IMG/VR virus record: IMGVR_UViG_3300010885_056153 | Location: 1 to 21,642 of that record | DNA: 21,642 nt | DNA from: a virus | Direction: 5' to 3' (one strand) | Shown: positions 303 to 10,716 of the stretch, in pieces | Numbering within the stretch: the stretch's first letter is position 1 | Layout of the letters: each line of letters begins with the position of its first letter | Notes under the pieces: model-generated | Seen by the model: only the letters and a program-made list of their open reading frames with translations | What the model was told of the DNA's origin: nothing | The model's database searches: none | Made by a program: the position numbers and the translations under genes

Positions 303-374
303 CTCCCACTGCTGGACTCGAACCAACAACATCAGAGTTAACAGCTCTGCGCTCTGCCATTGAGCTAAGCGGGA
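303..374 (-). tRNA. tRNA-Asn (anticodon GTT)
   Basis: A full cloverleaf can be folded by eye on the minus strand. The acceptor stem TCCCGCT pairs with AGTGGGA (one G-U). The D arm is GCTC/GAGC with a 7-base loop. The anticodon stem CAGAG/CTCTG encloses the loop CTGTTAA, giving anticodon GTT. The variable loop has 5 bases, and the T arm GTTGG/CCAGC encloses TTCGAGT. The discriminator base is G and is followed by CA rather than CCA, so the CCA end is probably added after transcription. It lies between two genes for exported proteins. A phage tRNA usually supplements host decoding; many AAC/AAT codons occur in the Asn-rich tail proteins here, which fits but does not prove that role. Confidence 0.93.
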
Positions 375-997: not shown

Positions 998-2581
998 TTA
1001 AACAGATGTTCCTTGAATAAATGACTTCAAAGAACCAAGGGTTAGGTCTACTCCGCCCTTATCATCAATGCCTTCACCGTCCATAACAGCATTGGCTATT
1101 GAGTTTTTCTGCTGTAAAGACTCGTGTTGGCGCACTTCAATAGAACCAGACACTAAAAAATCTTGAATAACAATAGTTTCCCAAGTAGATGAAGCTCTTT
1201 TTATTCGACCATTTCTTTGCGTCGCAAGGCCAGACGACCACGGCATGTCATAATTAACCAATAAATTGGCAGCAGGCAGGTCAACGCCATAACCCCCAGC
1301 GTCACTGCTAATAAGAACACGGACATTAGGGTTAGTGTTAAATTCAATCTTATTATCTTCTTTAGATTTTGCATCAAGTTGTCCTGTGTATGTACGACAA
1401 ATGTCTACCCCCAGCTTATCTCTAATCATGCCTACCATGTCTATGTAAGTAGCAAAAATTACAACTTTATTGTCTGGGCGCTGGTCCAAGAAGTCTTTAA
1501 CGTACTCAATTAACGCGTCTAACTTAGGGGATGCGGTGACTCCGTCTAGTAGTCCCTCTTCTAAAAGGTAACTAGCGTACAAAGACCCTGAGTCACCTAA
1601 ATCTTGAAACTTTTCAGCACTTACTCTAACTAAGTCTGGATGGGAGCACAACATTTTAAGGCACCCTACTTTAGACATAATGCGCCCACGAATTTCATCT
1701 GCTCGGCTACCTGATTTATCAGCGTACCCGTAATGAGTAAGCATGTTAAACGAACCGCCAAACAAGTCTTTAGCATTGTCTAGCTCTTGAATTAAATCAT
1801 CAACAATTTTTCTATAAAGTTTTGCAGATTTTCTGTCAAAGTACACAAGGATAGGTTCTTTGTGTATTGAGTCAGGTAGGTATGGAGCTACGTCTGGGTC
1901 TTTCTGTGACTTCCTAACGGAAGCTTCTTTCATTTTCGTATGTAGCGTAGGTAAATTTCTATACCTATCAACACCGCCCCAAGTATTACGAACGATAAAT
2001 GTTGAGTCAAAAATATCAAAACGTCCCAGCACTTTCTGATCTACAAATTGCATGATGGAGTATAGTTCTTCGGGCTTACCGTTTTCAATAGGTGTTCCTG
2101 TAAGAGCAAACTTAAAAGGAGCGTTTGCAAGTCTTTTTACTTGCTTAGCTCGTTTAGACCTAAAAGATTTAATTGCTGTGGCTTCGTCTAGCACAACAAA
2201 ACCACGAGGTAACTTGCTGACGTATGCCCAATCATTAACTACCTGTTCGTAATTCATAATGATGTAGTCCACCCCAGAATTTTCCCAGTTCATTGCTTCT
2301 GCGTATTGAGCTTGACGTTGCTTAGGAGTTCCGTCAATTACTAATGAGGTAGAGTCGCTAAACTTTGTAATAGAGTTAGCCCATTGGTACTTAAGACTGG
2401 ACAGGCAAATCACTAACCCAGGTTCGTAAATCTTTTCTTCATCCATCAACCTTTCAACAGCTGCGATGGTTAGTACAGTCTTACCTAGACCTAAATCATA
2501 AGCAACCAACATTGAACCTTGATCACACATACGGTCTACGGCGTCCACTTGGTACGGCAATAGTGTTCCAATAAATGACAT
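998..2581 (-). CDS. SNF2-type superfamily 2 DNA helicase/ATPase
   Basis: 527 residues with the SF2 motif set in order: LLPYQVDAV Q-like motif (7-15), Walker A DLGLGKT (29-35), motif II DEAT (132-135), motif III TGTP (161-164), then the second RecA lobe with VVIFATY (about 373-379), SSDAGGYGVDLPAA (425-438) and the arginine-finger motif QRNGRIKR (455-462). The DLGLGKT and TGTPIEN forms and the QRNGRIKR form are typical of SWI2/SNF2 proteins found in many phages. It should be a dsDNA translocase acting in replication, recombination or repair. No extra domain is visible beyond the two lobes. The gene follows an intrinsic terminator, so it probably has its own promoter; I see no clear Shine-Dalgarno before ATG 2581. 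A free-standing SWIM zinc finger protein is encoded at 5626-5937, in the same transcription direction. Confidence 0.9.
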   Translation of the reverse strand: MSFIGTLLPYQVDAVDRMCDQGSMLVAYDLGLGKTVLTIAAVERLMDEEKIYEPGLVICLSSLKYQWANSITKFSDSTSLVIDGTPKQRQAQYAEAMNWENSGVDYIIMNYEQVVNDWAYVSKLPRGFVVLDEATAIKSFRSKRAKQVKRLANAPFKFALTGTPIENGKPEELYSIMQFVDQKVLGRFDIFDSTFIVRNTWGGVDRYRNLPTLHTKMKEASVRKSQKDPDVAPYLPDSIHKEPILVYFDRKSAKLYRKIVDDLIQELDNAKDLFGGSFNMLTHYGYADKSGSRADEIRGRIMSKVGCLKMLCSHPDLVRVSAEKFQDLGDSGSLYASYLLEEGLLDGVTASPKLDALIEYVKDFLDQRPDNKVVIFATYIDMVGMIRDKLGVDICRTYTGQLDAKSKEDNKIEFNTNPNVRVLISSDAGGYGVDLPAANLLVNYDMPWSSGLATQRNGRIKRASSTWETIVIQDFLVSGSIEVRQHESLQQKNSIANAVMDGEGIDDKGGVDLTLGSLKSFIQGTSV

Positions 2582-2603
2582 ACAAAAAGACTACACTACG
2601 CTA

Positions 2604-2634
2604 GGCAAAAAGAAAACCCACCCCGAAGGGTGGG
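2604..2634 (-). terminator. Intrinsic terminator after the M23 gene
   Basis: On the minus strand a perfect 7-bp GC-rich stem (CCCACCC / GGGTGGG) closes a UUCG tetraloop and is followed by TTTTCTTTTT. The hairpin is at 2617-2634 and the T-run just below it. It lies 17 bases past the stop of the M23 peptidase gene and before the SNF2 gene, so it should end transcripts of the replication operon and separate them from the SNF2-NlpC-tRNA segment. Confidence 0.88.
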
Positions 2635-2651
2635 CTATCTCTGAGCAAAAA

Positions 2652-3056
2652 CTATGCGTCTAAAAGTGCCTGTGGGTCAAGCCCGCTGCCTTTTTTCCAA
2701 CCTGGTCCTGCCTGTAGTTCCATATGTAAATGGGGACCCGTGCAGTTTCCGTCTGCTCCAACTTTTCCAATAACGTCTCCCACTGCAAGGACTTGTCCGA
2801 CCTTGACGCTGTTGGAAGACAAGTGAGCAAATAGTAAATGTCCACCTTCAACTTTCATAAGGACTGAGTTCTGACCAAATGCAGCGCCCCAACATTGTCC
2901 TTCTTTAACTACCTTACCCGCAACTGGAGCAACAACTACAGCTCCCGTTGGGGCAGCGTAATCTACTCCTTCATGCTTTCCTGAGGACCATCGTTTTCCC
3001 TTAACTCCGAAGGGCGTGGTTACCTTGTACTTTGCATCTTTCATTGGCGATGCCAT
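2652..3056 (-). CDS. M23 family metallopeptidase (probable endolysin or virion lysin)
   Basis: 134 residues, essentially one LytM/M23 domain. Zinc ligands are visible: H28 and D32 in HEGVD, and H111 in the HLH motif (H109-x-H111); H78 in FAHLS is the usual additional catalytic His. These enzymes are zinc endopeptidases that cut peptide cross-bridges in peptidoglycan. There is no signal peptide and no wall-binding domain, so export would need a holin or pinholin, which I do not see here, or delivery in the virion. ATG 3056 has a good ribosome binding site (AGGAGA, 5 bases). It follows the primase by 8 bases and ends the operon before the terminator at 2604-2634. With the secreted NlpC/P60 enzyme nearby, it forms a likely two-enzyme wall-degrading set. 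Confidence 0.88.
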   Translation of the reverse strand: MASPMKDAKYKVTTPFGVKGKRWSSGKHEGVDYAAPTGAVVVAPVAGKVVKEGQCWGAAFGQNSVLMKVEGGHLLFAHLSSNSVKVGQVLAVGDVIGKVGADGNCTGPHLHMELQAGPGWKKGSGLDPQALLDA

Positions 3057-3064
3057 ATTCTCTC

Positions 3065-3991
3065 CTAAAGACTAGTCATATATCTAACTGAATGTTTAGC
3101 AGATTCCAATCCAGCTAGTACTTCTACTCTGCTCATGCCACCAACATCTTTCATGTTAGTGTTTGAGTAATCGAAAAACCAGGCCTCAAAATTATGTGAC
3201 TTAGTCAATTGGGCCATCTTGTGAGAAGCGGAAACTCCAGCTTCATCGGAATCTAGTGCTAGGACAATTCTAGCAGCGGAACGTATGTATTTCAGTTGAA
3301 CTTCTGAAATTAATGCGCCATACACAGCGACTCCCCCAGGAATTCCTATAGACGCAAGACGTACTACGTCTAATGGAGACTCAACAACTATCATGTCTCC
3401 ACCTGTGTACTGCTGGTACCCAAACAAGCCATTAGATTTTTTTACACCAACTGGGTAATTACGAAAGTGTCTACCGTTAAATGCTTTGACCTGCCAGCCC
3501 TGCAAGTTACCTGTGTGTGGGTCTCGAATAGGAATAATCCAACTCTCGGTAGAACGTTCCCACCGTAAACCAAAATGCTGTGCGGCAGCTAAAGTTAGAC
3601 CGCGAGCCTGTAGGGCATGCGCTGGTGGGTCTGTAAAAGCTGACAGGGAGGCTTCGGATATGTATACCAGTTCCTCAAACACTTCCCTAGGCTTACTAAT
3701 AGCCCGCTCAAAAGCATCCATAAGTTCCCCGCCAGAAGACAACCAAGACTTAGCGTCGTCGTAGCTTAACTCTCGCATAGTAGCGGTCAAGGAAATAATG
3801 TTTCCCTTGTACTCGCAGGAAAAACAAATGTGTGCGCCAGTGTCTGCGTTTATGTACCAAGAAGGATTGCGGTCTACCTTACCTGTACGAGACTCGTGCA
3901 TAGGGCAAAACCCTTGAATCTCATTCCCACGAGAACCTACATGCTCAACACCCAAGTCTTCTAAGACGCGTTCCATTTCATCTATGGTCAC
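3065..3991 (-). CDS. DNA primase, CHC2 zinc finger plus TOPRIM
   Basis: 308 residues. The N-terminal zinc site reads C29-x2-H32 ... C56-x2-C59, the CHC2-type finger of DnaG-like primases. The TOPRIM core spans about 200-275: the conserved Glu is E204 in VVESPLD and the acidic pair is D247/D249 in ALDSDEAG. It should make RNA primers at the fork with the DnaB-type helicase encoded just upstream. It is shorter than cellular DnaG and lacks a clear C-terminal helicase-binding domain, as is common in phage primases. The start is GTG at 3991, overlapping the helicase stop in GTGA, which implies coupled translation. It is close in style to T7 gp4 split into two genes, but the order (helicase first) and separate polypeptides are typical of many phages. 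Confidence 0.92.
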   Translation of the reverse strand: MTIDEMERVLEDLGVEHVGSRGNEIQGFCPMHESRTGKVDRNPSWYINADTGAHICFSCEYKGNIISLTATMRELSYDDAKSWLSSGGELMDAFERAISKPREVFEELVYISEASLSAFTDPPAHALQARGLTLAAAQHFGLRWERSTESWIIPIRDPHTGNLQGWQVKAFNGRHFRNYPVGVKKSNGLFGYQQYTGGDMIVVESPLDVVRLASIGIPGGVAVYGALISEVQLKYIRSAARIVLALDSDEAGVSASHKMAQLTKSHNFEAWFFDYSNTNMKDVGGMSRVEVLAGLESAKHSVRYMTSL

Positions 3992-5217
3992 ATGTCATCA
4001 CTACTAATCTCACGGAACTCACCTGTGTTCCAACCCCACACTAATGAAACTTCTAGAGGGCCACAGTTACGGCTAGCCATAACTTTTAACAACCTAGTGT
4101 CATCTACATTTTCATCTTCACGCTGTAAACCAAATACAACATCAGCATCCTGAAAGAACGAAGAAGAGTAACCAATAGAGTCAGTTGTAACGCTGCCCTT
4201 TCGCGTCTTCCAACCCAAAGCCTGAGTGGTAATAACAATTGGAATCTGGTGCTTCTGGGCTAAACGCTTTAAGCTACGCGTAATGTTAGTAATCGCTAGT
4301 GCAGTGTTTGCTTCCCCTGATTGTTCGTCCATCATAAGGTAAACACCATCAATAAATAAAACGTCAGGCTGTAGTTGCTGAATCTTGTTTGAGATACCAG
4401 AAATTACTGAGGCGCCCGCAGAATCCGTAAGCCAAAACTTATGCTGAAGCATTGTCATGCCCCGAAGTTTTGCTTGATACCGTGACTCTTCTTCTGCGGT
4501 TAATGTTCCTGTGGTCAAGCGGCTGTGCGAGATGCGAGAACGCATGGCATCGTAACGAGTAAGTTGTTCTTGGTTGCTCATCTCAAAAGATTGAAAGACG
4601 GGTACCTTTCCACCGCTATGAATGTTATGAGCCATCTGCAAAGCAAGAGTGGACTTACCTGTCTTAGGTAGAGCAACAATTACAATAAGTTGCCCTGGTT
4701 GTAGCCCGCTGGTTGCTTGGTCTATGGTGTTAAATCCTGTTGCCATTCCACGAAGACCTCCTGGAAGGTTCTTACGCTCAAGGTATTCTTCCCAACGCTG
4801 GTCTGTGTTCTGAGTAATGTCAATGTCACTAACAGAATGAAACCCGTTGTCATCAAGTGTAGAGAACCCACGCTGCAAAATAGATACGGCATTTTCGTGG
4901 TTACCAAACTTTTCAATTTCCTCAATCGCTTTGCGAATCGAGTTATTAACAATTGATTTACGTTGCGCTTTGACTACTTCGTCTATTAAGAAATCAAGAG
5001 AATCGTTAACCTCAACAATAACGTATGTAGGAAAATTTTCTTTAATAACCTCAAGGCTAGGAACTTCATTGTAGTTGGTGTAGTGAGTCCTAACAAAAGA
5101 CCAAACTCTTCGGTCCTCGTTGTTAGAAAACCATGGCTCTGTTACGCCGCGTTCCAGTAGGAAGCTAAGACTTCTATCGTTAATTGCTCGGTTTAGTAGT
5201 AGGTTTTCGTAGTTCAT
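3988..5217 (-). CDS. DnaB-type replicative DNA helicase
   Basis: 409 residues. Residues 1 to about 125 form a helical N-terminal region like the DnaB N domain. The RecA-type core begins near 155 (ATGFNTIDQATSGLQPGQL), with Walker A ALPKTGKST (182-190), the signature region QSFEMSNQEQ (209-218), Walker B VLFIDG (286-291) and a Q motif with IVITTQ (327-332). A hexameric 5'-3' helicase at the fork is the expected role. The gene starts at ATG 5217 behind AGGGG and overlaps the primase by 4 bases. An AAA+ DnaC-like loader is encoded in the same operon, which supports use of a dedicated loader. Confidence is high for the family. Confidence 0.92.
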   Translation of the reverse strand: MNYENLLLNRAINDRSLSFLLERGVTEPWFSNNEDRRVWSFVRTHYTNYNEVPSLEVIKENFPTYVIVEVNDSLDFLIDEVVKAQRKSIVNNSIRKAIEEIEKFGNHENAVSILQRGFSTLDDNGFHSVSDIDITQNTDQRWEEYLERKNLPGGLRGMATGFNTIDQATSGLQPGQLIVIVALPKTGKSTLALQMAHNIHSGGKVPVFQSFEMSNQEQLTRYDAMRSRISHSRLTTGTLTAEEESRYQAKLRGMTMLQHKFWLTDSAGASVISGISNKIQQLQPDVLFIDGVYLMMDEQSGEANTALAITNITRSLKRLAQKHQIPIVITTQALGWKTRKGSVTTDSIGYSSSFFQDADVVFGLQREDENVDDTRLLKVMASRNCGPLEVSLVWGWNTGEFREISSDDM

Positions 5218-5226
5218 CTGGTCCCC

Positions 5227-5622
5227 TTAAAAGTCCATTCCTAGGCGACCATACATTAGTTGGTGCTCTGGGTCAATTACGCCGATTACTTCTGGTCTAT
5301 ATGGTAGGTCTGCAACTAACTTCTTTGGAGAAGCGTAGTGGTTGTAATACCTGAACGGGTTGTTACCTGCTCTATCAATTTTGTTAAACAGTATTTCAAG
5401 TTCAGGGTCTTTGTACTCAAATGAGACTAGCTCAAGTGTTACTCCTGCACGAGTAGTGTACAAGTAAAACTTGTTTAAAAGAAATTTGTCAAACCCAATC
5501 TCTTCGGATTTAACATTAAATATTTTTAGCTTTTTTTCTATTACGGGTACTTTAATGAATAACAAATTAGCATTCACAAGCACACGCCTTGGCATGTCGT
5601 TGCTGATATCCCCTTTATACAT
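5227..5622 (-). CDS. Uncharacterised replication-operon protein
   Basis: 131 residues, no domain I recognise. It is mixed alpha/beta in look, basic in the first half (RRVLVNANLLFIKVP, EKKLKIF) with aromatic-rich stretches (FYLYTT, NPFRYYNHY) and no Cys, membrane segment or signal peptide. A possible better-defined core starts at the second Met (residue 10, NDMPRR); an AAGGGG sequence lies 13 bases before that Met, while the first Met at 5622 has only a weak AGAAG upstream. The gene lies 3 bases after the SWIM gene and 9 bases before the DnaB-type helicase, so a replication or repair accessory role is likely from position alone. Confidence 0.65.
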   Translation of the reverse strand: MYKGDISNDMPRRVLVNANLLFIKVPVIEKKLKIFNVKSEEIGFDKFLLNKFYLYTTRAGVTLELVSFEYKDPELEILFNKIDRAGNNPFRYYNHYASPKKLVADLPYRPEVIGVIDPEHQLMYGRLGMDF

Positions 5623-5625
5623 GGT

Positions 5626-5937
5626 TTAACAGACTTCTATTTTTCCGAATTTAATAATAAATTTTCGTAGCTCTTCTGCAGATTCGTGAGCTTTATCTGC
5701 GTCTTCATCAGTAACCAATGTAGAAATTTGTAAAGGGTAGGTGCCGTGGTTTTGTTTGACACGGGAAGATACAAATTTAGTGTGCTTGCAAGTACCGCGA
5801 CCAGCATACCCTGGGCAAGTGCAAACAAAGTTTCTTTCACCATCAATACTTACTTCAAAAATACCTGGACCTGGGGTACCAGAGCCACCAAGAAAAATTT
5901 GAACTAACTTAGTATCTTCCACAACGCCCTCGCTCAT
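5626..5937 (-). CDS. Small free-standing SWIM-type zinc finger protein
   Basis: 103 residues. The motif C39-x-C41-x8-C50-x-H52 within FVCTCPGYAGRGTCKH matches the SWIM zinc finger consensus CxCx(n)CxH. In bacteria that finger is usually a domain of SWI2/SNF2 ATPases or is linked to recombination complexes, and it is thought to bind DNA or protein. A helical C-terminal tail (about 77-95, rich in E/K/A) follows. The start ATG overlaps the stop of the loader gene (ATGA). Since the phage's own SNF2 protein has no SWIM domain, this could be its detached partner. The motif is clear; function is inferred. Confidence 0.72.
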   Translation of the reverse strand: MSEGVVEDTKLVQIFLGGSGTPGPGIFEVSIDGERNFVCTCPGYAGRGTCKHTKFVSSRVKQNHGTYPLQISTLVTDEDADKAHESAEELRKFIIKFGKIEVC

Positions 5938-6629
5938 TTTTTACGTAAGTCCCCTTTAGTAGATTTTAGTTCAATTGTTGCAAAAGCTTCGTGTATAAAC
6001 GAACTAGTTGCTTCACCATATGCGGCAGACCAAGCTTCAACAGGAAGATTTGTCGTGACTATAGTGGGAAGTCCTAAGTTAAACCTGGTACGCAGTATGT
6101 GGTGAAGTAAGTTCTTGTTCCAACCACTGCCTGACACATGCTCTTTGCCTACGTCATCAATGACTAGAACTCGAATGTTATACGCATCATCATCACACTC
6201 GCCGTGCATACCTAAAAACAAACGCTCTTGCTCATCGGTTCTATCTGCGCCCATCAATGAACCTTTAAGTTCAATAATGTCGTTGTAAGTAGCAAAGTAA
6301 CAAGGCTTAACAAGAACTCGCCCCTCGTTAATTACAAACTCTTCTAACGAAAATGTCCGCATCATCTCTTGAATGATAGCTAAAGAAAGCGTAGTCTTTC
6401 CGTGGCCTGGCTCTCCAACAAGTAACAAGCCTTTACCACAAATAGGTTTACCATCTGCACGGATAACGTCGCCAGATTTAACCTTACGTATCCAATTGGA
6501 TACAAGTTTCAAATCCTGATCAGATACCTCTTTGCAGTCCGACAACTCCCAGCCTCTACGGTTTGAGGGAACGTTAGCAATGGTTAACCACGACTTACGT
6601 CGTACAGGTAACTCGCTAGCATTAATCAT
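5934..6629 (-). CDS. DnaC-like AAA+ helicase loader
   Basis: 231 residues. Walker A is GEPGHGKT (72-79) and Walker B is VLVIDDVG (154-161), with sensor-1-like TTN (192-194, IVTTNLP). This arrangement, with a short N-terminal region of about 65 residues and the IDDVG form, is that of DnaC/IstB-type ATPases. In phage replication operons they load the DnaB-type helicase onto the origin; IstB transposition helpers share the fold but no transposase is present here. ATG 6629 has a GAGGAA binding site. The gene overlaps the 55-residue ORF upstream by 8 bases and the SWIM gene downstream by 4, so the set is translated as a coupled unit. Confidence 0.87.
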   Translation of the reverse strand: MINASELPVRRKSWLTIANVPSNRRGWELSDCKEVSDQDLKLVSNWIRKVKSGDVIRADGKPICGKGLLLVGEPGHGKTTLSLAIIQEMMRTFSLEEFVINEGRVLVKPCYFATYNDIIELKGSLMGADRTDEQERLFLGMHGECDDDAYNIRVLVIDDVGKEHVSGSGWNKNLLHHILRTRFNLGLPTIVTTNLPVEAWSAAYGEATSSFIHEAFATIELKSTKGDLRKK

Positions 6630-6789
6630 TTGTTTCCTCTGACTTGCCGCAACTGCAGTTAGTGCACTTGCAGTCTGGTTTAGTACTCTCTGCGTTTTGA
6701 ATCCACTCAGTTATGCGCTGAACAGTATCTGCTGTAAGGCCAGCCTGACGGTAATCACGTTCAAGGCTTTCTTCAAATGCTCTCTTCAT
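6622..6789 (-). CDS. Small Cys-rich protein (55 aa)
   Basis: The ORF starts at ATG 6789, one base after the stop of the initiator gene (TAACATG), and ends inside the start region of the loader gene with an 8-base overlap, so it fills the gap exactly. The first 35 residues are helical and charged (MKRAFEESLE, TVQRITEWIQ), and the C-terminus has a C-x-C-x2-C-x-C cluster (C40, C42, C45, C47), which could bind one metal ion. I do not recognise a family. Tight coupling on both sides and codon use like its neighbours argue that it is a real gene. A role as a small adaptor for the initiator or the loader is a guess from position. Confidence 0.7.
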   Translation of the reverse strand: MKRAFEESLERDYRQAGLTADTVQRITEWIQNAESTKPDCKCTNCSCGKSEETND

Positions 6790-6790
6790 G

Positions 6791-7723
6791 TTACTCACTT
6801 AACCACTCCTGTGACTTAGCCGCTTGGATTGCTGCGGTTTCTTTTTCTACTTCTGTTTGTACCATACGCTTGGCTTGTACTGCAAGTTCTGAAGCTCGGT
6901 GTACAAAAAGCTTCCACATATGTTCACCGTCATCGTACTTCTCAAACTTTGTTGTTGCAAAAAACAAATCTAACATTTTTAATTCTTCAAGTGCTGTAGT
7001 TTTTTGCGCTTTACGCATCGTAGCAAAAGCACCTGTAATAAGTCTGATTGTAATGTTGTTTTTAATATGAAAATGCTGAGTTAACCGTTCCATAAACTCA
7101 AAAGCAACCTCGTTGCTTCCCCAAAGCTCTTTAGCAAGGTTATGCCGTGTCCGCAAGGTAGTACTTTTTTTAGACTCAAAAGTGGTTTTACCTTCTTCCA
7201 TTTTTGCAGCGCGGTATTTAAGGTTTTCTTCTTCACCATCCCTGACATAGTCATCTTTTGGTGGGTCGCCTTTAAAGAAATCGTATGGCAAGTTACTCTC
7301 CATTGACATGTTTACTGTTTTGTATTCGTTCGCGAGGTTTTCCTCGCGAACTTCTTTACTAGTTATACTAGTTATATTATTAGGATTAATAAGCTGGTTC
7401 TCTCTTATAAGGATGACGTGTTTTCCGCCCCCCTCTACCCATTCCGCAGGTGGATAATCCGCCCCCTGCGGCAACCAGTTTTTAAGATACAACCATCCTA
7501 ACTCTGTAATATTTCCAAAATTATTCCATTGCTTGTTAGGGCCCGCTCTGTAGCTGCCTCTCTCGACCATACCAGCGTCCTCAAGCTCTTTTAAAGCTGT
7601 GCCCCAGTAGTCTCTACCAAATCCTGGAAAAGCCTCCATAAGCCCTGGTCTGGTCATACGGACCTTACCTGTGGCCCCTGCCATTAAGGCAACCAGTGCC
7701 TTAGGCGATATCGTACTAATCAT
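6791..7723 (-). CDS. Winged-helix replication initiator-like protein
   Basis: 310 residues. Residues 1-85 look like a winged helix DNA-binding domain: helices around ISPKALVALMAG and RPGLMEAF, a recognition-like helix GRDYWGTALKELEDAGMV, then a wing with NKQWNNFGNI. The middle (about 100-165) is a variable polar linker. The C-terminal part (about 190-310) is helical and charged. The layout (wHTH, linker, helical C-terminus, next to a DnaC-like loader and a DnaB-type helicase) parallels lambda O-type and DnaD-like phage initiators. The linker-coding DNA holds a strong hairpin and tandem repeats (separate entry), as an origin would. ATG 7723 overlaps the upstream stop in ATGA. It could instead be a transcription regulator; position favours replication. 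Confidence 0.6.
   Translation of the reverse strand: MISTISPKALVALMAGATGKVRMTRPGLMEAFPGFGRDYWGTALKELEDAGMVERGSYRAGPNKQWNNFGNITELGWLYLKNWLPQGADYPPAEWVEGGGKHVILIRENQLINPNNITSITSKEVREENLANEYKTVNMSMESNLPYDFFKGDPPKDDYVRDGEEENLKYRAAKMEEGKTTFESKKSTTLRTRHNLAKELWGSNEVAFEFMERLTQHFHIKNNITIRLITGAFATMRKAQKTTALEELKMLDLFFATTKFEKYDDGEHMWKLFVHRASELAVQAKRMVQTEVEKETAAIQAAKSQEWLSE
7328..7400. other. Candidate replication origin inside the initiator gene
   Basis: Within the linker-coding part of the winged-helix gene there is a perfect 10-bp inverted repeat, GTTCGCGAGG / CCTCGCGAAC with a 4-base loop (7328-7351). Two adjacent exact copies of ACTAGTTAT follow (7358-7366 and 7367-7375), then an A/T-rich stretch to about 7395. 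The repeats encode ITS-ITS in the protein. A GC-rich hairpin, tandem repeats and an AT-rich tract next to each other inside an initiator gene resemble the lambda-type origin within gene O. The repeats themselves are seen; the origin role is inference. Confidence 0.4.
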
Positions 7724-8253
7724 TTCTTTAGTACCCGCTTTAATTCCTTGCCAATAGCCTCTGCAAAGATGTCAGCAATGATACGAACTGCCTCGTATAG
7801 TGGGTCCTCAAACTCTTCTGGGTCTTCGTCGTCGTCGTCAGCCTCAGATTCTTCCTCAGTCATTTGTTCCTGCTCAGGAATAACAGGCGCTTGTACGGCT
7901 TTAATAGATTCTTGAGGCACTAGAGCATTAAGCCCGTCCGTCAAATCAAAAGCTGGGATGCCACCTTCTTTGGCAATAGCCAAACTGGACAGGGATTCAG
8001 GGTCATCGTCATCCCAAAGGATAAACATGGCTGAGTTTTCTTTAGTCACCTTGGGGTCAAACAGTTCTACCTCAAACGCAATGTTTTTATCGGCAAGGTA
8101 TTGCTTGAGCCAAACTTGCCCCTCGGAAAGACGTACTGGGTTGGCTAAAGTAAACGTAAGTTTAGGGTTGGCATGGATGTAGTCATCCACCAAAGCCTCA
8201 ACGTTTGCACGGCTGGTCTTACCATTGCCCGTGACTATAATGTGGTCGTACAT
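7720..8253 (-). CDS. Rossmann/SLOG-like protein with acidic tail
   Basis: 177 residues, first gene of the replication operon. Residues 1-115 alternate beta and alpha: strand HIIVTGNG, helix SRANVEALVDDYI, strand LTFTLAN, helix GQVWLKQYLADKN, strand AFEVELF, strand AMFILWDDD, helix SLSSLAIAKEGG, strand IPAFDL. The FILWDDDDPES...AIAKEGGIPAFDL stretch resembles the 'FWDG.S.GT...A...GIPV' ending of SLOG/DUF2493-type nucleotide-binding Rossmann domains. A strongly acidic run (about 134-150, with DDDDED) and a C-terminal amphipathic helix rich in lysine follow. GNGKTS is not a Walker A motif because the spacing to an upstream Gly is wrong. The function is unknown. Its start codon and ribosome binding site lie in a hairpin (separate entry). 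Confidence 0.6.
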   Translation of the reverse strand: MYDHIIVTGNGKTSRANVEALVDDYIHANPKLTFTLANPVRLSEGQVWLKQYLADKNIAFEVELFDPKVTKENSAMFILWDDDDPESLSSLAIAKEGGIPAFDLTDGLNALVPQESIKAVQAPVIPEQEQMTEEESEADDDDEDPEEFEDPLYEAVRIIADIFAEAIGKELKRVLKK

Positions 8254-8280
8254 AGGTTCTCCTAAACGGTAGGAGACCTA
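8253..8280 (-). promoter_or_regulatory. Hairpin masking the ribosome binding site and start codon
   Basis: On the minus strand TAGGTCTCCTA (8280-8270) pairs with TAGGAG-A-ACCTA (8264-8253), giving 11 base pairs with one bulged A and a 5-base loop. The right arm contains the TAGGAG ribosome binding site and the A of the ATG for the gene at 7720-8253. In a transcript that includes both arms, translation of that gene should be reduced. A promoter just upstream would start RNA near 8273-8270, inside or after the left arm, so promoter-born RNA would have a free start site. Confidence 0.65.
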
Positions 8281-8307
8281 CTATACACGCAACTTGTCTT
8301 TTAACAA
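8280..8307 (-). promoter_or_regulatory. Sigma70-like promoter for the replication operon
   Basis: On the minus strand TTGTTA (8307-8302, 4 of 6 to TTGACA) and TATAGT (8285-8280, 5 of 6 to TATAAT) are separated by 16 bases. The predicted start lies about 7 bases past the -10 box, near 8273-8270, giving a leader of under 25 bases before ATG 8253. Position in the only gap between the tail and replication modules supports it. Confidence 0.55.
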
Positions 8308-8311
8308 GTTG
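8290..8311. promoter_or_regulatory. Inverted repeat over the -35 region, possible operator
   Basis: A perfect 8-bp inverted repeat, CAACTTGT / ACAAGTTG with a 6-base AT-rich spacer, overlaps the proposed -35 box. There is no U-run after it on either strand, so it is a poor terminator. Its size and position fit a binding site for a dimeric regulator; an RNA hairpin at the 3' end of tail transcripts is the other option. Confidence 0.45.
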
Positions 8312-8331
8312 TCGTATAAAAATAAAGTTTA

Positions 8332-10716
8332 CTATATTGGGTACCTAATAATAACAATACCGTTAACCCCGTTTTGTCCAGAAGTATCATTACCACTACT
8401 TCCACCCCCACCACTTCCATATGCAGTTGAAGTTGCACCCTCACCTGAAGCAGTACCGCCACCCCCACCACCTACTCCATAGGTTTGATTAACGCCAGTT
8501 GCGTAATTATTGGTTGTACCTGCTCCACCTGCTCCACCAGTTGTTGCATTTGGGGCGTTGCCTCCAGCGCTTCCGCCAAAGCTGCCTCCTCCTCCTCCTC
8601 CTGCACCGCTAGTTAAGTTACCAGCACCGCTGCCACCAGCAAGACCTCCAGTGCCTGCAGCAGCACCCGCATTAGCCCCGTTGCCTCCGCCACCGCCACC
8701 GCCACCAGAGGCAGCTGAACTTCCACTAGTAGTAGTTCCACGACCACCACCAGGAGAAAAAGCCATCAGGGAAGTACCACTTGACTGACCGTTATTGGAC
8801 GCTCCACTTAATACCCCTGTTCCGCCGACACCAACAGTAACGGGTACGGCGTTCAGACTAGTACCAAGGTTGTAACCTGCAGTGTCGTAGCCCCCAGCGC
8901 CTCCGCCGCCTCCGCCAACGCCATTTTTGCCTCCGCCGCCGCCACCTCCACCACCCATTTGCATAAAATTGCCCGCGAGGTTTGTTACTAGTGGTTGGAA
9001 TGTTCCACTTTGTAAAAATACATGTGCAAAGTAAGTTGTTCCACCACTAACATAAGAATTAATAATATCTCCACCAGTTGCTTTTTGAACCGCGTTAGAA
9101 ACTATTGGCCCTGCGTTTGCTGACCAATTGGCTGTAGTTAATTGAGCGCTTTGAGCCTTAACAGAATATATGTACGAAGTATTAGTAGACACGGTAGTGT
9201 CAGTGTAAGGCAAAGTGATGGAGAAATTAGTGGCTCCAATGTTAGACCAGTTAGCTCCATTATCTGAAGAACGTCTAATGTTGTACCCAGTAATTGCAGG
9301 AATTGCAATTTGCGCAGATGTACCAATAATGCCGCTTACTATTATCGAGGTATTAGTTGTAGAGTTAACTGTTTTAGCTAAGGTAGGTGCAGGTAATGGG
9401 TCAACTAAATGGTACGCGTAAACAGGAGATGTTGTTGTTACGTAATTTCCAGTAATTGCTGGGCTAATAGCGCGTACTCGGTAAAGGTAAGCTCTACCAG
9501 ATTGCGCAGAAACTTGCGCAAAAGAAGTTGCAATTGTATTTTGTACTGTCACATAGCTATCATAAGCAATACTTGGACCAATATAGGAGTCAGCTTCGCG
9601 AGCTTGTTGAAGTTCGTATGTAGTTACAGCTGGGTCTGCTACTACTGTAGACCATGAAATGTTAATTCTATTAGCAACTCCAGCAACAGGTACGGCTGTA
9701 ATTGACGCAGGGGTATCTGTATAGTAAGCAGTTACAGAAGAAGAAGTTATGTAGTTACTGGTAACACTTCCACCCGTAGCATAGAAAGCTACGGCTCGTA
9801 CTCTGTAGATGTAGCTAATGGCGTCAACCGCATTCAAATCAGTGTAAGTTGTTTGAGAAGGTGGAATAGGACCCGACTCTGGTACAAGAGAACTCCACGA
9901 AGGAACAGGTGAAGTAGTAGTTATGTCTAGTCTTTGTAATTCGTAACTAGTAATAGTAGCGTTAGTAGTTGGAGCAGTCCAAGTTATAGTTATTGCATTT
10001 TCAGCATTATTTACTGGAATTGCAGTTATTGCACTAATGTTTGCAATGTACAAAGACACAGCAGTAGCTGTTGTTACATTTGTAGAGTTTGCATTAGCAG
10101 CACTAATTCTGTATTTAAGAGTTGTTGCTGAACCACTTGTTGCAACGTTACTATCAAGATAAGTTCCTTTAGCCAAACTTGAAAGAACTACAGAACTATT
10201 AGTTCCTGTTACGCGTTCTAGGCTGTAGATCACAAGAGAAGGGAACGCTACGCCAATAGCTTCCCAAACTAAAGACACACCCGTGCCTGTAGGGGTGGCT
10301 GTAATTGTAGGGTAAATATAGTTGTAAAAAGTAGGCCTGTCTACAACAACGGGTTGGGAATACCGTACTTTAGAAGCACTAAGAGCTGGGTTAACAGACG
10401 TCATTGTTCCGTAGACTCCAGCACCGCCAGTTAATGAAATAGTAGGGGCGGTAGCATAAACAGTAGTAGTAGGTAAAATTACGCTAAATTTGTTTGGCCC
10501 ATCTAATTTATACACAAGTACTCTAGTTACGTTAGGGCTATTAGCATCAGTACTGGTTAGCCCAGTGATAGTTACCCGCGCTCCCACGTAAAGGTTATGT
10601 GGGTCAACAGTAGTATAAGTAACAATAACAGGGGTAGTAGCCACAGCAACGGAAGGCGATACGGTAGCGCTAGAAATACTAGCAGCAAGGGTGGCGTTAC
10701 TAGCTTTTCTAAGCAT
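8332..10716 (-). CDS. Tail fibre/adhesin with FN3-like domains and polyglycine tip
   Basis: 794 residues. Residues 25-105 form a beta-rich module of the 'HNLYVGARVTITG...NKFSVI' type common in phage tail proteins. Four FN3-like beta-sandwich repeats follow at about 136-226, 227-333, 334-437 and 442-540, recognised by W near the second strand and YxYRVRA / YxYSVKA near the sixth. Residues 548-794 start with a YFAHVFLQSGTFQP segment and pass into long glycine runs (588-596, 601-606, 671-678, 706-711, 749-754), ending in GIVIIRYPI. That C-terminus (glycine runs, then G-VIIRYP) is a known type of glycine-rich tip in phage tail proteins. Such tips often bind receptors. ATG 10716 has GGAGGG upstream and overlaps the previous gene by 8 bases. 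It probably forms the distal host-recognition part of the baseplate or fibre. Confidence 0.8.
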   Translation of the reverse strand: MLRKASNATLAASISSATVSPSVAVATTPVIVTYTTVDPHNLYVGARVTITGLTSTDANSPNVTRVLVYKLDGPNKFSVILPTTTVYATAPTISLTGGAGVYGTMTSVNPALSASKVRYSQPVVVDRPTFYNYIYPTITATPTGTGVSLVWEAIGVAFPSLVIYSLERVTGTNSSVVLSSLAKGTYLDSNVATSGSATTLKYRISAANANSTNVTTATAVSLYIANISAITAIPVNNAENAITITWTAPTTNATITSYELQRLDITTTSPVPSWSSLVPESGPIPPSQTTYTDLNAVDAISYIYRVRAVAFYATGGSVTSNYITSSSVTAYYTDTPASITAVPVAGVANRINISWSTVVADPAVTTYELQQAREADSYIGPSIAYDSYVTVQNTIATSFAQVSAQSGRAYLYRVRAISPAITGNYVTTTSPVYAYHLVDPLPAPTLAKTVNSTTNTSIIVSGIIGTSAQIAIPAITGYNIRRSSDNGANWSNIGATNFSITLPYTDTTVSTNTSYIYSVKAQSAQLTTANWSANAGPIVSNAVQKATGGDIINSYVSGGTTYFAHVFLQSGTFQPLVTNLAGNFMQMGGGGGGGGGKNGVGGGGGGAGGYDTAGYNLGTSLNAVPVTVGVGGTGVLSGASNNGQSSGTSLMAFSPGGGRGTTTSGSSAASGGGGGGGGNGANAGAAAGTGGLAGGSGAGNLTSGAGGGGGGSFGGSAGGNAPNATTGGAGGAGTTNNYATGVNQTYGVGGGGGGTASGEGATSTAYGSGGGGSSGNDTSGQNGVNGIVIIRYPI

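Follow-up and report, generated by a model that had tools for sequence, protein, structure and literature searches.

A conserved stem over the start of a phage replication operon, set in fixed register behind a promoter-like -10, may insulate the operon from read-through RNA

Masking of translation starts in RNA that reads through from upstream is best described in phage T4. The Shine-Dalgarno (SD) sequence of gene e (lysozyme) is masked in an early long RNA, and RNA from its late promoter is translated (PMC3014915). Similarly, the SD of soc is masked in early read-through RNA and free in RNA from the adjacent late promoter (PMC3014915, PMC2988022). The ribosome-binding sites of I-TevI, I-TevII, I-TevIII, segB and Aeh1 mobE are sequestered in upstream-initiated transcripts, and in the homing endonuclease genes a promoter that excludes the 5' arm from the RNA relieves the masking (PMC2988022). 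According to a review, the genes known to be under read-through start masking are all late genes, masked on early or middle RNA (PMC2988022). In IS200, a stem occludes the ribosome site of the transposase gene in RNA entering from outside (PMC3196728). In phage gene order, early operons often sit behind late ones on the same strand, and few studies ask what prevents late read-through from remaking early proteins.

We analyzed a 21,642-nt stretch of viral DNA (the window; IMG/VR record IMGVR_UViG_3300010885_056153), in which such a junction carries a stem over the start of gene 1 (Table 1). Folding of the minus-strand RNA gave an 11-bp stem in which 8280-8270 pairs with 8264-8253, from U8280 with A8253 to A8270 with U8264, by 11 Watson-Crick pairs and with A8258 bulged; the minimum free energy structure adds a closing pair, G8281-U8252. 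Both the SD and A8253 of the gene 1 start codon lie inside the stem, and a promoter-like pair, TTGTTA-16-TATAGT (8307-8280), stands between the stop of the tail gene and the ATG of gene 1. An initial annotation of this DNA had described a one-bulge stem of 11 bp over the SD and the first letter of the ATG, which proved exact by sequence and by folding, and a promoter that would start RNA inside or past its left arm; the pair is present, with a predicted start at 8274-8272. A single sequence would then act as promoter discriminator and start region and also form the anti-SD arm.

Table 1. Features of the gene 1 junction and its surroundings in the window.
Feature	Position	Strand	Remarks
-35-like hexamer TTGTTA	8302..8307	-	TTG with a 16-nt spacer in 7 contigs; in distant relatives a weaker match or a different spacer
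-10 hexamer TATAGT with GTG before it	8280..8285	-	TAnnnT at all 51 starts; of 35 cluster representatives, 27-29 have the GTG
Expected RNA start, 6-8 nt past the -10	8272..8274	-	inferred from the -10 position
Left (anti-SD) arm UAGGUCUCCUA	8270..8280	-	core CTCC 8275-8272, 4 nt past the -10
Hairpin loop CCGUU	8265..8269	-	from folding
Right arm UAGGAGaACCUA	8253..8264	-	holds SD AGGAG (8263-8259) and the A of the ATG
Gene 1, 177 aa	7720..8253	-	no known family; 4-nt overlap with gene 2
Downstream operon	998..7723	-	gene 2, small Cys-rich ORF, DnaC-like loader, two small genes, DnaB-like helicase, primase, M23 peptidase, SNF2-type helicase
Tail gene, 794 aa, upstream	8332..10716	-	glycine-rich domain and fn3 matches; stop 78 nt before the ATG

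Taken alone, the stem of the window is moderately unusual, and the significance of the arrangement comes from the family comparison. The z of -6.5 for folding of the 81-nt piece around the stem overstates the start-masking hairpin because a second, window-only hairpin (8318-8284) contributes to it. When only the left-arm stretch, from the -10 to the SD, was shuffled, 26 of 2000 sequences reached the window's SD-opening cost of 9.7 kcal/mol (p ~0.013). The second hairpin, UAUACGaCAACUUGUUaaaaGACAAGUUGCGUGUA (8284-8318, minus strand; z -4.8 alone), overlaps the -35 and the spacer; it was rejected as a conserved part, being strong only in the window among the ~50 leaders screened (next was L109, z -2.6). 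Rfam 15 gave no match to the stem at the gathering score. Its sole match in the window was a tRNA gene at 303-374 (minus strand), which lies near the window end and adjoins an NlpC/P60 gene (417-944).

The layout of stem and promoter was found in a family of freshwater phages. A direct search with gene 1 gave six relatives; DnaC-like and DnaB-like protein profiles brought in more contigs, on which a gene-1 HMM was then run. This yielded 53 distinct gene-1 starts, with identity to the window protein down to ~25%, and the stem is conserved across this range. Fifty-one of the starts share the order TAnnnT, ~4 nt, CTCC or a variant, 5-11 nt, GGAG, 3-7 nt, start codon (L067 and L123, whose assigned starts lack a recognisable SD, were omitted); the presence of TAnnnT in every one was a search criterion, not an independent outcome. 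The -10 and the CTCC core are separated by exactly 4 nt in 38 of the 51 leaders and by 3-5 nt in 45, with the reservation that selection between overlapping TAnnnT candidates was slightly biased towards 4 nt. The loop takes every length from 5 to 11 nt, and its letters and those of the stem vary among relatives. A TTG-...-TATAGTAG pattern occurs at exactly one site each in the window and six related contigs, at identical spacing throughout. Promoter sequence and register are thus conserved in relatives, and the start of the promoter RNA is a prediction from the -10 position. Genome contigs gave one distant match (24% identity, in a MAG), with no integrated relative or host, and the matches listed from the phage collection were only DnaC-like proteins at 26-35% identity, mostly of actinobacterial and Pseudomonas phages.

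The initial annotation had called gene 1 the first replication gene. It does head the replication operon; the gene itself is without known function. Its protein was modelled as a Rossmann-like alpha/beta fold (pLDDT 80) that includes a C-terminal helix and an acidic stretch of low confidence, and neither a PDB match at E<=0.001 nor a known protein family was found for it; residues G9, R15, N17, E19, L21, D24, W80 and G107 are invariant in homologues. The ends of gene 1 and gene 2, of gene 2 and the small ORF, and of the small ORF and the DnaC-like gene overlap or abut, as do gene ends on through the DnaB-like and primase genes. The small ORF, an unlisted Cys-rich one of ~55 aa (...CKCTNCSCGKSEETND; window ~6624-6790, minus strand), lies between gene 2 and the DnaC-like gene, whose start it overlaps, and similar small ORFs occur in the same place in several close relatives. 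Upstream, the tail gene is the presumed source of read-through RNA. In a search for same-strand ORFs, one of at least 80 aa ended no more than 300 nt upstream in 48 of the 51 leaders. Where a profile matched, these upstream genes were of tail type (baseplate/tail in the window, baseplate in L098, a weak tail match in L060); several others had no profile match. The earlier description of tail genes running into a replication operon agrees with the profile matches in the window and L098 and with the same-strand gene in the 48 leaders. The stop of the upstream ORF precedes the -10 end by 12-52 nt in 46 of 51 leaders and by ~250 nt in two; since translation of the upstream gene ends before the stem is reached, its ribosomes are not expected to keep the stem unfolded.

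Comparison of the leaders indicates that the pairing of the arms is under selection. The near-invariant CTCC/GGAG core, which is expected of an SD and its complement, gives little evidence of pairing alone. When arms were swapped between genomes in 21 leader clusters, own arms paired at -9.35 and swapped arms at -7.36 kcal/mol (z -5.7, p<=5e-5), and the effect persisted when restricted to the arms outside the core (p 0.0015). The first outer pair is UA in 13 clusters, CG in 7, UG in 3, AU in 1 and GU in 1, that is, in 25 of 35 clusters (p 0.002); pairs beyond it covary weakly, partly owing to bulges, as in L041 (GCUG-CUCC/GGAGgCAGC) and L047 (GUGCUgCUCC/GGAGgAGCAC). RNAalifold recovered the core helix unaided, and 4 of its 5 pairs show compensatory changes. 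The covariation score of the named structure was matched by 1 of 500 shuffles, and slid versions scored less, the +1 slide being close behind (0.247 vs. 0.258) because some alignment rows are shifted by one. An extension in which the -10 would pair with the start codon was rejected as a covarying element (p 0.14, not significant). The paired changes in relatives that the initial annotation had named as a check are thus present: swapped arms pair worse, the helix is recovered and the -10 register is kept. Because the arms covary, coincidence is disfavoured.

The predicted cost of opening the SD depends on where the RNA begins. In read-through RNA the median over the 51 leaders was 7.2 kcal/mol (9.3-9.7 in the window), compared with 2.4 and 2.0 kcal/mol in predicted promoter RNA starting 7 and 8 nt past the -10. 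Other SD-bearing starts of the same loci, taken as a control, stood at 2.4 kcal/mol, and read-through RNA differed from 177 such starts at a Mann-Whitney p of 1e-18. A start 7 nt past the -10 removed >1 kcal/mol of the cost in 45 of 51 leaders; a few leaders (L045, L089, L098, L099, L104) fold weakly in the read-through form. Left-arm shuffling over 20 leader clusters gave a Stouffer p of 1e-12 for the SD-opening cost. As the 5' end was slid past the -10, the median fell gradually from 5.8 (+1) to 4.2 (+5), took its largest single step to 2.4 at +6 and reached 1.95 at +7. The largest step coincides with the position at which bacterial RNA polymerase usually initiates. For the window, the cost was 6.1 kcal/mol with a 5' end at 8275 and 2.9 at 8273, and the SD is predicted to be masked for 5' ends at 8275 and upstream of it and free for those from 8273 onwards, in line with the difference between long and shortened RNA that had been proposed. 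With CTCC at the usual start position, the family leaders have pyrimidines at +5 to +8 after the -10, and purines are present 1-3 nt after it. In the window, a purine start at 8270 (10 nt past the -10) is also possible. The true start could sit at purines 9-10 nt past the -10, with the SD still free, or, less plausibly, at those 1-3 nt past it, which would leave the SD masked.

The sequences show a conserved and covarying stem, a fixed register of -10 and anti-SD arm, and same-strand upstream genes that stop before the stem; together these point to translational insulation as the probable function, gene 1 being masked in read-through RNA and freed in promoter RNA. RNA reading through from the upstream tail operon, which is presumably late, would carry the entire stem; the whole stem would pair the SD and start codon and leave gene 1 untranslated. 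Poor translation of gene 1 may also lower that of the following genes, as their overlapping or abutting ends suggest. Promoter RNA would start 6-8 (up to 10) nt past the -10, within the left arm or beyond it, and the stem, with that arm shortened, could not fully close, so that gene 1 would be translated. The assignment of late and early timing is read from gene content alone. If it is right, a stem of ~30 nt could solve the read-through problem by the position of the RNA start, with no protein needed.

Other readings of the same dyad deserve consideration. An inverted repeat at a start site might be a DNA operator that binds a dimeric repressor and shuts the promoter, with RNA folding incidental; the dyad does straddle the expected start point, and GTAGG-TCT-CCTAC in the window is also a small palindrome. 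We regard this as unlikely because the distance between half-sites varies over 5-11 nt, all values occurring, which a dimer of fixed spacing would not tolerate, and because the stems of relatives often contain G-U pairs, mismatches and bulges on one side. Outer arm sequences also differ between clusters, and the combination of fixed half-site spacing with conserved letters that would mark an operator was not found. A switch in the promoter's own leader, that is, a hairpin opened by a protein, a ligand or temperature, would suit the strong conservation of an SD-masking stem and could begin at the purines 1-3 nt after the -10. That distance is shorter than bacterial RNA polymerase uses, however; the varying letters of loop and stem leave no conserved ligand pocket, no Rfam match was obtained, and the switch is judged improbable because CTCC keeps a fixed 4-nt register with the -10, which a switch would not need.

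The CTCC core, nearly invariant and exactly at the start point, could alternatively be a motif of the start site or initial transcript, with SD complementarity as a by-product. This is very unlikely: the outer arm letters track their partners, and CTCC or TTCC follows only 1 of 72 unique promoter-like matches that lack a following SD and start. CTCC was also absent from the other promoter-like sites in the relatives' genomes; the motif therefore belongs to the junction and not to the promoter motif. Finally, a strong stem at an operon junction might mainly trigger RNA cleavage or stop read-through transcription rather than mask a start, and untranslated RNA invites Rho or RNases. We consider this highly improbable, as the stem is not followed by a U-run, no terminator-like site turned up, and the position of the stem is tied to the SD and the -10 rather than to a cleavage consensus.

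Should translational insulation be the function, its signature offers a simple way to look elsewhere for start sites and insulation. Scanning viral contigs for TATAAT-N4-CTCC...GGAG...ATG gave 75 matches, against 70 with CCTC, which is also SD-complementary and so a poor control, and 38 with the non-complementary TCCC. After deduplication and with an ORF and a -35 required, 10, 10 and 7 were left, respectively, and no general enrichment of the design across viruses was shown, the mild excess being mostly gone. Look-alikes with TATAAT, an anti-SD arm 4 nt on, an SD and ATG were seen in L169 (3196-3227), L170 (713-744), L171 (2384-2421), L241 (5663-5694) and L281 (1835-1866), and are possible independent cases of the same design. 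Two relatives carry another GTGTATGCT promoter-like site (L153, ~7377, plus strand; L155, ~11951, minus strand), followed by AUUCC-AAGGA-GGAAU, a small hairpin whose loop carries an SD, and then a GTG start.

The initial annotation had drawn a parallel to T4 gene e, which is a fair analogue (PMC3014915). As in T4 e and soc, the stem masks an SD and would do so only in the long RNA, since a putative promoter overlies its 5' arm; the pairing of the SD in upstream-started transcripts, which marks the T4 type, is found here by predicted folding. In contrast to T4, which masks late genes on early or middle RNA, the gene in the window heads a replication operon behind tail genes, with timing inferred from content; the putative promoter is of the ordinary -10/-35 kind rather than a T4 late promoter, and the gene is unrelated. 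The element consequently would work like the T4 group and is not filed as a member of it. The I-TevI group likewise hides its ribosome-binding sites in upstream-initiated RNA and drops the 5' arm by its own promoter, but consists of mobile endonucleases expressed late. IS200 and IS10, whose transposase gene is reportedly likewise protected from impinging transcription, share the occlusion of a ribosome site in incoming RNA; there, transposase genes stand at the ends of an element, whereas the present stem sits between two phage operons and keeps a conserved register with its promoter. A literature search found no early gene masked in late RNA, which is weak evidence since its coverage is incomplete. 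There is perhaps an even chance that these loci represent a class of promoter-embedded insulators, with the anti-SD arm locked behind the -10 and an early replication operon silenced in late read-through RNA, the reverse of T4, which may recur in unrelated phages. The mechanism, read-through start masking, is a known one; what would be new is its temporal direction, apparently opposite to that of T4 if gene content predicts timing.
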